A stretch of DNA of 64,000 nt from Acetobacteraceae bacterium (lineage in GTDB: Bacteria > Pseudomonadota > Alphaproteobacteria > Acetobacterales > Acetobacteraceae), in NCBI GenBank assembly GCA_027482245.1, contig JAIXWG010000066.1, forward strand, positions 1 through 64,000, given 5' to 3'. Positions 3,482 to 62,682 of this stretch are shown here, piece by piece. Every line of letters begins with the position of its first letter. Within the stretch, counting starts at the first letter, position 1. Made by a program: the position numbers and the translations under genes. Below the pieces are notes generated by a model. The model did not search any database and was not told the origin of the DNA. It was given only the letters and a program-made list of their open reading frames with translations.

Positions 3482-3517
3482 TACCACCGGCATTATTGAG
3501 TGACCTGCGGCCGGCGA

Positions 3518-3644
3518 AGCTGGCCGAGGCCGCGACGGGTGCCCATGTGCGTTGCTTCGCAACGCTCATGGGGTCCCGGAATGCGGCCCGCGGCCAATGC
3601 CGCGAAGCCAAGCCCGCGGAGCGGGCGCCGGCGATTGAGGCACG
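3518..3644 (+). repeat. Two-hairpin dispersed repeat, copy A (with inserted hairpin)
   Basis: A divergent copy of the element at 51111-51180, 56632-56731 and 61695-61762. It has the conserved GCGAAGCCAAG box at 3602-3612, a second hairpin with arms CCCGC (3613-3617) and GCGGG (3621-3625) around a GGA loop, and the trailing TGAGG at 3636-3640. The first-hairpin region (GAGGCCGCGA) is broken up by an extra long hairpin, CCCATG..CGTTGC-TTC-GCAACG..CATGGG, at 3542-3572. It lies between the convergent ends of a GPP34 gene and the AtzH-like gene. Confidence 0.6.
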
Positions 3645-3652
3645 AAAAGGGA

Positions 3653-3686
3653 ATACCAACGAGTCGCTGCAAGCGGCCGTTGGTAT
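3653..3686. repeat. Inverted repeat between convergent genes
   Basis: The arms ATACCAACG (3653-3661) and CGTTGGTAT (3678-3686) are perfect complements. An inner CGCT-GCA-AGCG stem extends the hairpin. It lies just before the stop of the minus-strand AtzH-like gene and may act as a transcription stop from either side, although no T-run follows. Confidence 0.5.
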
Positions 3687-51102: not shown

Positions 51103-51110
51103 TATCATGA

Positions 51111-51180
51111 CCCTCAGACGGCGGGCGCCGGCTCCGCCGGCTTGCCTTCGCCACATCGGTGGCGGCGCCCGTTCGGGCGC
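51111..51180 (-). repeat. Two-hairpin dispersed repeat, copy B
   Basis: Read on the minus strand, the first hairpin is GCGCCCG-AA-CGGGCGC (51165-51180), followed by a GCGAAGGCAAG box, the second hairpin GCCGGC-GGA-GCCGGC (51127-51141) and a CCGTCTGAGGG tail. The 41 bases 51111-51151 are identical, in the opposite orientation, to 56691-56731. It fills the gap between the aldolase and EamA genes. Confidence 0.85.
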
Positions 51181-51210
51181 TCGGACCGGTCGAGTGACCG
51201 GTCCGCCACC

Positions 51211-56577: not shown

Positions 56578-56631
56578 GGGAGGAAGGGCACGACCGCGCC
56601 GTCCGCGATGGCGGCCCGCTTGGCGGGCCGA

Positions 56632-56731
56632 GGCCGCGAACGCGGCCCGCGCCCAGACCAACCGCCGGGCGCGGTGCGGCAGTGCAGGGCGCGAAGGCAA
56701 GCCGGCGGAGCCGGCGCCCGCCGTCTGAGGG
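56632..56731 (+). repeat. Two-hairpin dispersed repeat, copy C
   Basis: First hairpin GGCCGCG-AA-CGCGGCC (56632-56647); GCGAAGGCAAG box from 56691; second hairpin GCCGGC-GGA-GCCGGC (56701-56715); TGAGG tail at 56726-56730. A spacer of about 43 bases separates the hairpins. Its 3' 41 bases equal those of copy B. It sits between patatin and 3-hydroxybutyrate dehydrogenase genes. Confidence 0.85.
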
Positions 56732-56737
56732 CAGGAA

Positions 56738-61123: not shown

Positions 61124-61657
61124 ATGTCCGCTGATCCCGCGCTGATGCCCATTCTCTACGTCCCGGACCCCCGGCTGCGCGCCAAGGCCAAGCCCGTGAC
61201 CGCCGCGGGGCCGGAGATCGCGGCGCTGTCGGAGCGCATGCTGGCCACCATGTACAAGGCGCCCGGCATCGGCCTGGCCGCGCCGCAGGTGGGCGAGTTG
61301 CTGCGCCTGGTCGTGATCGACCTGCATGAGAACGACATCCGCGCGCCGCTGGTGATGGTGAACCCCTCCATCGTGGCGGAGAGCAAGGATCTGGCGACGC
61401 GGGAGGAGGGGTGCCTGTCCCTGCCGAACCAGTTCGCGGAGGTGACGCGGCCGGCGCGGGTGAAGGTGGCCTACCAGGATCTGACGGGCGCGAAGAAGGA
61501 AGTGGAGGGGGACGGGCTGCTGGCCGCCTGCCTCCAGCATGAGATCGATCACCTCGATGGCGTGCTGTTCGTGGACCACCTCTCCGCGCTGAAGCGCAAC
61601 ATGCTGCTGCGCAAGCTGGCCAAGGAGCTGAAGGCCAAGGCGGCGGAGAAGGAATGA
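61124..61657 (+). CDS. def: Peptide deformylase
   Basis: A 177-residue metalloenzyme removing the formyl group from nascent proteins. The three motifs are intact: [20 protein letters not shown] (metal Cys) and QHEIDHLDG. The start at 61124 is [16 protein letters not shown], normal for the family. Its stop overlaps the fmt start (ATGA). Confidence 0.97.
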
Positions 61658-62682
61658 GCGGCGCCAGCGCCTGGCGGCCGCCGGAGGCGGACGAGGCCGC
61701 GAACGCGGCCCGCCGGCAGTCCGGCGAGCCAAGCGGCCGGAGGCCGCGCCCGGCGCTTGAGGGCACGAAGCTAAGAATCGCGTTTATGGGCAGCCCGGAT
61801 TTTTCCGTGCCGGCGCTGCGGGCGCTGCATGGGGCGGGGCACCACATCGTCGCGGTCTACACCCAGCCGCCGAAGCCCGCCGGGCGCGGGCAGAAGGAGA
61901 CGCCCTGCCCGGTACATCGCGCGGCGCTGGAGCTGGGGCTGGCGGTGCGGACGCCAGCGCGGGTGCGGCGGGACGAGGCGGCGCACGAAGCCTTCCGCGC
62001 GCTCGACCTGGATGTGGCGGTGGTCGCGGCCTATGGGCTGATCCTGCCCAAGGCGATGCTGGACGCGCCTCGGCGGGGGTGCCTGAACATCCATGCCTCC
62101 CTGCTGCCACGCTGGCGCGGTGCGGGGCCGATCCAGGCGGCGATCCTGGCCGGGGACAGCGAGACCGGCATCACCATCATGCGGATGGAGGAGGGGCTGG
62201 ACACCGGCCCCATGCTGCTGCGGCAAAGCGTGCCCATCGGGCCCCGCATGACGACGCCCGAACTGCACGACGCCCTGGCCGCCATCGGCGGTCCCCTGGT
62301 GCTGCGGGCGCTCGACGAAATCCCGGAGCCGGTGCCGCAGCCGGAGGATGGCGTGACCTATGCCCCCAAGCTCGCCAAGCCCGATGGCCGCATCGACTGG
62401 TGGCAGGATGCCGTGGCGCTGGACCGCCGCATCCGCGCCATGAACCCCTGGCCCGGCTGCTTCTTCCAGGCGGGGGAGGAAGTGATCCGCGTGCTGGCGG
62501 CGGAACCCGTGGAGGCCGGGGGCCTGCCCGGCACGGTGCTGGACGGCGCGCCTACCATCGCCTGCGGCAGTGGCGCCATCCGGCTGCTCCGCCTGCAGCG
62601 CGCGGGCAGGGCAGCGATGCCGGCGGCGGATTTCCTGCGCGGCTTCCCGATGCCGGTCGGCACCGTGCTCGCGCCCGCCTGA
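61654..62682 (+). CDS. fmt: Methionyl-tRNA formyltransferase with repeat-derived N-terminal extension
   Basis: A 342-residue enzyme formylating initiator Met-tRNA. The core is typical ([70 protein letters not shown]). Unlike E. coli Fmt, which has about four residues before the first strand, here about 40 Arg/Ala/Pro-rich residues precede LRIAF, and this stretch is encoded by copy D of the two-hairpin repeat. No ATG, GTG or TTG lies in frame between the overlapping ATG (61654) and 61786, and the ATG at 61786 would cut off the first strand, so the extension is most likely translated. The overlap with def (ATGA) is kept. Confidence 0.95.
61695..61762 (+). repeat. Two-hairpin dispersed repeat, copy D (inside fmt)
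   Basis: First hairpin GGCCGCG-AA-CGCGGCC (61695-61710), as in copy C; GGCGAGCCAAG box at 61723-61733; second hairpin GCGGCC-GGA-GGCCGC (61733-61747); TGAGG at 61758-61762. The stem of hairpin two differs from copies A-C but its pairing is kept. The copy is read in frame as codons of the Fmt N-terminal extension, where its TGA is out of frame. Confidence 0.8.

Follow-up and report, generated by a model that had tools for sequence, protein, structure and literature searches.

Why does the methionyl-tRNA formyltransferase (Fmt) encoded in this Falsiroseomonas-type genome of 6.39 Mb begin with a long stretch that its close relatives lack, and is that stretch a translated copy of a mobile repeat? 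The window, the whole 64,000-nucleotide piece of DNA analysed here, is the first part of a 173,734-base contig, and it carries fmt directly behind def, the gene for peptide deformylase. The explanation that we favour, at a probability of roughly 0.82, is that the fmt insert belongs to a dispersed family of non-autonomous, MITE-like palindromic repeats, lies in frame in the def-fmt overlap, is translated and is tolerated.

The repeat within the fmt reading frame

A first-pass annotation had placed a palindromic repeat between the coupled fmt start codon and the first beta strand of Fmt, and a repeat core was located there, behind the ATGA overlap of def and fmt and ahead of residues 41 to 46, which form the strand (Table 1). 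The extent it gave, 61654-61790, does contain the repeat but, by ending at 61790, reaches into conserved Fmt sequence; both core and net insert are shorter. From the def stop to the FMGSPDF motif, 125 nt were counted in the window genome (G000) versus 20 nt in Falsiroseomonas stagni (G004), Roseomonas (F.) ponticola (G006) and F. algicola (G013). The insert is preceded by ATG AGC GGC GCC, which is host-like, and followed by CTA AGA ATC. The repeat was predicted to fold better than all of 200 shuffled sequences (200/200, z -3.15).

Table 1 Features of the def-fmt locus and copies of the repeat core in the window
Feature	Position	Strand	Remarks
def, peptide deformylase	61124..61657	+	TGA stop overlapping fmt ATG (ATGA); good family match
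fmt, methionyl-tRNA formyltransferase, 342 aa	61654..62682	+	residues about 5-39 insert-encoded; good family match
net inserted DNA, 105 bp (35 codons)	61666..61770	+	from comparison with relatives; boundaries by eye, uncertain by a few nt
repeat core, about 94 nt	61673..61766	+	four hairpins, fmt copy
hairpin 1 of fmt core	61675..61693	+	arms 61675-61682 and 61686-61693, one mismatch in fmt copy
hairpin 2 of fmt core	61695..61710	+	arms 61695-61700 and 61705-61710
hairpin 3 of fmt core	61711..61726	+	arms 61711-61716 and 61721-61726
hairpin 4 of fmt core	61728..61754	+	outer arms 61728-61730 and 61752-61754, inner arms 61734-61737 and 61743-61746
codons CTA AGA ATC GCG TTT (LRIAF, first beta strand)	61771..61785	+	possible remnant of the A-rich tail of the repeat
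partial core copy	3574..3640	+	
core copy, intergenic	51110..51195	-	
longer core copy, intergenic	56610..56733	+	

The two codons directly behind the fmt core are rare in the genome, CTA making up 0.29% of leucine codons and AGA 0.17% of arginine codons. F. stagni has CTC CGC at this place, with the residues L-R-I-A-F identical, and AAGAAT is common to the site and to the consensus of the repeat tail, cgAAAagaatacC. The first strand of Fmt may therefore be partly encoded by the repeat tail, or synonymous change may have been fast.

About 40 residues had been estimated to lie ahead of the Fmt domain, a figure that the profile matches bear out: they begin at residue 41 (Pfam) and 40 (TIGR00460), and chain position 3 of 1fmt, an entry named methionyl-tRNA formyltransferase which we take to be the E. 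coli enzyme, aligns to residue 39. In an AlphaFold2 model (28 sequences, mean pLDDT 85.5) residues 41-46 form the first strand and residues 1-39 are of low confidence, as is expected because the relatives are without that part. The extension, about 35 additional residues, is arginine- and alanine-rich, has no Pfam match and is probably disordered. As annotated earlier, no alternative start precedes residue 45, in-frame ATG, GTG or TTG codons occurring in the first part of fmt at residues 1, 45 and 52 only; residue 45 falls within the first strand of the model, most of which would be lost with a start there. Since the genome yielded just one full-length fmt-like match, the coupled ATG is the only ordinary route to a complete Fmt, and we infer that the repeat is translated from it as the N-terminal peptide of the enzyme.

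That the repeat instead stays untranslated, as a spacer or a regulatory hairpin with fmt starting downstream of it, appears improbable. It would agree with the remark in PMC3733652 that repeats annotated as N-terminal may in many cases be extragenic, and with the finding that of the 46 frames with coding sequence downstream of a copy, 27 offer a start codon within the 10 codons after the repeat and 38 within 20. In fmt, however, the start codons and the strand described above argue against it, as does the retained overlap with def (ATGA in G000; ATGA or GTGA in seven coupled relatives). The folding predicted for the region from -35 to +130 was -90.3 kcal/mol with the insert versus -77.1, -83.3 and -84.8 kcal/mol for three empty alleles, a difference only modest, and a strong block of initiation by the insert was rejected on this ground.

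Gain of the insert and other putatively translated copies

The def-fmt junctions of 15 genus genomes fall into four kinds. Ten are without insert and have only a few residues ahead of the conserved Fmt motif; in seven of these the start is coupled (ATGA or GTGA) and 17-23 nt separate the end of the def stop from the FMGSPDF motif, and three have a short uncoupled gap. F. oryziterrae (G005), G007 and F. bella (G009) hold a reversed repeat between def stop and fmt ATG (L023, L013 and L015, respectively), one genome (G011) has another repeat family in frame, and G000 has the present repeat in frame; the repeat model matches the fmt loci of G000, G005, G007 and G009 and none of the other 11. The three reversed copies end at or a few codons ahead of the conserved motif, the coupling to def is gone, and visual inspection of these junctions revealed no ribosome binding site. 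The G011 junction (L020:1504-1612) contains 99 extra nucleotides in frame, compared with 105 in G000. They belong to a second family of dispersed repeats, seated at the position of fmt where G000 has its own insert. A search of 20 genomes matched this family 21 times in G011 and no fewer than twice in every one of the 12 genus genomes among them.

The best 80 of 87 GTDB fmt loci, some of which come from the 15 genus genomes, comprised 75 with a recognised start motif and five without a readable one; no in-frame copy was present in these 80, and the repeat was found at two, reversed in both (F. bella and F. oryziterrae). In a tree of def plus Fmt, G000 groups with G004, G006 and G013 (support 100/99), and all three are empty; 7 of the 15 inner branches of this tree are weak, the branch of the G000 clade not among them. 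Because the three closest relatives are empty and the clade is well supported, the 105-bp insertion was gained on the G000 branch. By this sequence comparison the in-frame insert, known from one draft assembly only, is a derived gain of 35 codons. The extension is thus not shared among relatives, and the derived insert with its filled and empty sites fits the proposal of the first-pass annotation that the element can be mobile and is tolerated as a peptide; we regard both transposition and tolerance of the Fmt peptide as inferred from these comparisons.

That two species have accepted different repeats, both in frame and at one position of fmt, could also mean that the extra residues have been domesticated and improve or regulate Fmt. 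We consider this very improbable for a low-confidence, arginine- and alanine-rich stretch that matches no Pfam family, although low confidence would be expected in any part missing from relatives.

Other translated copies were sought among 164 distinct copies, 56 of them from G000; most of the others had been picked by a match to the Fmt-frame peptide, and a long open frame was the reason for choosing many of them. The 155 copies that cover enough of the model were read in all six frames, and domain starts were set by eye unless a profile is cited. In queC of F. stagni (L173/L293) the repeat is in frame, and the next possible start, a GTG, falls three residues into the QueC profile; G004 alone of 13 loci has the repeat at this place, and it is absent from QueC of 12 other genus genomes. 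An opgC-like gene of F. ponticola (L159/L306) is less strict as a case than fmt and queC, because its first later start, a TTG, lies only two residues inside the OpgC profile. Here the repeat occurs in G006 only of 13 loci and is absent from the 11 other readable ones (L318 being unreadable). All three starts, of fmt, queC and the opgC-like gene, overlap the stop of the upstream gene. Among 125 copies compared, the opgC copy is the closest to the fmt copy (98% identity by BLAST; 96.7% over 91 nt), followed by a copy at 93.5%.

The three copies are read in the same frame, but a frame preference was rejected as evidence since the queC and opgC cases came from searches with the peptide of that frame. 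No copy among 82 was contained in a called gene, and in none of 155 did a coding signal run into the repeat through an open frame. In G009 a copy and the 3' end of a called gene have 89 nt in common (L163:4511-4603), a possible C-terminal translated case.

The repeat family: location, structure and ends

The description of the element as a dispersed repeat was well founded: matches were obtained in all 15 genus genomes, with 43 in G000 (40 of 433 candidates scored), and an iterative nucleotide profile (95-position model) detected four core copies in the window. At the site orthologous to the copy at 56610-56733, the repeat is present in G006, G007 and G011 and not in G009; in the stretches of G004 and G013 the model finds no repeat and the alignments break there. 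Judged from this site, some copies look old. Around the partial copy at 3574-3640, inverted ends that agree when two mismatches are allowed, each bordered by TGA, delimit 204 nt (3482-3685), possibly a longer full-length form, although end-scoring chose a left end other than 3482. Tandem core units occur in G000 (C5, 3893 and 3996).

Stretches of G000 totalling 2.04 Mb contained 60 copies, 58 of them between genes, one reaching 1 nt into a gene and one being that in fmt. These consist of 56 copies in 1.25 Mb chosen partly for holding copies and four in 783 kb chosen otherwise, all four intergenic. An early density of 20 copies in 654 kb of repeat-rich contigs was discarded as too high in view of the latter stretch, and roughly 80 copies per genome is the likelier figure by extrapolation. 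Genes were called by our own codon-usage caller, which placed the fmt start at residue 45, and the fmt copy was therefore reassigned by hand as genic; by the calls themselves, 55 of the 56 copies lie outside genes (fmt among them through this truncation) and the remaining one shares 1 nt with a gene, the gene coverage of the stretches examined being 84-94%. The genes flanking the 56 copies are convergent in 19 cases, tandem in 34 and divergent in 3, compared with 167, 821 and 169 for all adjacent pairs, and 53 of the 56 copies are faced by at least one gene 3' end. Within 50 nt of a copy lie 55 of 72 facing 3' ends versus 18 of 40 facing 5' ends.

Four stem-loops are common to 73 canonical copies from G000 and other genus genomes. 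Fully paired stems were counted in 57 (H1), 68 (H2), 70 (H3) and 59 (H4) of the 73, against shuffle means of 12.6, 34.9, 31.3 and 11.4 and shuffle maxima of 21, 46, 42 and 19, a contrast whose certainty the shuffles overstate, as related copies are not independent. With 20, 6, 5 and 14 different fully paired arms in H1 to H4, what the stems conserve is pairing and not letters. It would be natural to ask whether the repeat mainly works as an RNA or DNA structure that selection maintains, such as an mRNA-stabilising or terminator-like 3' element, with a regulatory role in the def-fmt operon. The pairing far beyond shuffles, the position next to gene 3' ends and the reversed copies at the def-fmt junctions of three other species speak for such a role. 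We nevertheless hold it to be unlikely, since the closest relatives are without the repeat at def-fmt, compensatory pairs could also stem from a mobility mechanism, and no match was found in Rfam, by which a known RNA family was likewise rejected.

Many copies have a hairpin at each side of the core. The full-length form typically spans 158 nt, with the inverted ends TACCAACGGC (left) and GCCGTTGGTA (right). Most copies are without good ends, both ends matching at 8/10 or better in 18 of 163. Thirteen of these 18 are flanked by identical 3-mers, all of the form TNA (TGA, TCA or TAA; shuffle mean 4.5, maximum 10), and in the other five the 3-mers differ; with looser ends (7/10 at both), 18 of 37 have equal 3-mers, again all TNA (shuffle maximum 15). 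Full-length copies thus have the appearance of a MITE that duplicates a 3-bp target, TNA. Within the IS5 family, target duplications of this form are made by the IS1031 group.

At the fmt and opgC inserts, inverted ends and a TNA duplication were looked for and none were seen, and the queC copy has a weak left end at most; for these three copies transposition is only a candidate route of entry. The fmt copy may be a core that has lost its ends, or a core spread in a separate way. Mobilisation by RAYT is unsupported for these genomes, Y1 transposases having been found in none of the 15 genus genomes by a search that was positive in 5 of 14 known genomes used as control. IS5-like transposases are present, and 30 of 70 matches were examined. 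Ends were found for two elements (L390 and L404, about 940 nt each, with TNA duplications), whose termini, GAGCCC... and GAGTCG..., differ from those of the repeat; neither could be adopted as partner, and no cognate transposase or autonomous partner with the ends of the repeat was found among the 15 genomes (Y1) or these 30 matches.

The favoured explanation of the fmt insert would run as follows. Repeat copies would settle or survive mainly just behind gene stop codons, and in pairs with overlapping stop and start (ATGA, GTGA) the place behind the stop coincides with the opening codons of the downstream gene; insertion into such an overlap would survive only with the frame kept. In the def-fmt overlap of the G000 lineage this would have added 105 bp, with the coupled ATG retained and about 35 residues gained by Fmt, the fmt core presumably having come by the same transposition route as the full-length copies before losing its ends. 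TGA is a stop codon as well as a TNA, which fits the position of copies right behind genes. A broader version, on which the TNA target is often the TGA stop itself and coupled pairs (ATGA, GTGA) recurrently gain in-frame N-terminal repeat peptides, in essential genes too, is a tentative proposal that we put forward with considerable doubt. Such a target choice would explain why the peptide is N-terminal and its gene translationally coupled, and, if true, TNA/TGA targeting would be a general route to new N-terminal peptides.

Comparison with known systems

In-frame palindromes are a known phenomenon, and protein-coding ones are best known from Rickettsia. This repeat family appears to be undescribed in the literature searched: titles and abstract openings retrieved for Roseomonas, Falsiroseomonas, Acetobacteraceae, Azospirillum, Rhodospirillales and translated palindromes do not describe it. 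The reading of the stop codon as target is original to this analysis. With filled and empty sites in close species of a Roseomonas-related genus of large genomes, the route from repeat to protein becomes directly testable.

Related repeats, 80-81% identical over part of the core, occur on Azospirillum replicons (7 records), and Azospirillum ramasamyi has full-length copies on three other replicons that are 98-100% identical to a copy on its plasmid (L377); four Azospirillum full-length copies read by eye are flanked by TCA/TCA or TGA/TGA. Their terminal hairpins differ, however, and the hosts belong to another family of bacteria. On the plasmid, a full-length related element lies in frame inside a 628-aa hypothetical protein (L377:345-2231). 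This protein has no Pfam match and no full-length relative in the plasmid collection, and the case was not used as evidence.

REP elements (GTAG, CGTC) are extragenic near gene 3' ends, mostly between convergent or tandem genes, with some inside ORFs, according to PMC3733652, which also reports CGTC repeats to be missing from Acetobacteraceae. The present repeat resembles them in being extragenic and near gene 3' ends, but its core of about 94 nt with four hairpins contrasts with their 20-40 bp, and RAYT-type Y1 transposases are missing from all 15 genomes. With TNA-duplicating MITEs it shares the 158-nt form, the inverted ends and the 3-bp TNA duplication (not at the fmt copy), whereas no autonomous partner with the same ends was found and most copies lack good ends. 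The enterobacterial RU elements and the Coxiella MITEs with reading frames (PMC2759123 and PMC5896051), which come from other bacteria, are likewise described as small mobile repeats that occur inside genes or contribute to proteins.

The resemblance to Rickettsia palindromic elements (RPEs) that had been noted at the outset stands for the dispersed palindromes and their in-frame insertion into genes of unrelated proteins, here in fmt, queC and an opgC-like gene whose relatives are without the insert. In PMC10969869 and PMC3733652, proteins with an N-terminal RPE-1 are reported as expressed. The resemblance does not extend to location and terminal tag: nearly half of RPE copies lie inside ORFs according to PMC10969869, compared with 1 of 60 G000 copies here (the 1-nt overlap uncounted), and the terminal CGTC tag described for RPE-4 and RPE-6 in PMC3733652 was not seen by eye in a core alignment of 34 copies. 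The putatively translated copies found of the falsiroseomonad repeat, moreover, sit behind overlapping start codons, and inverted ends with a TNA duplication mark its full-length form. By mode of insertion the repeat works like an RPE, but it looks like a different family.
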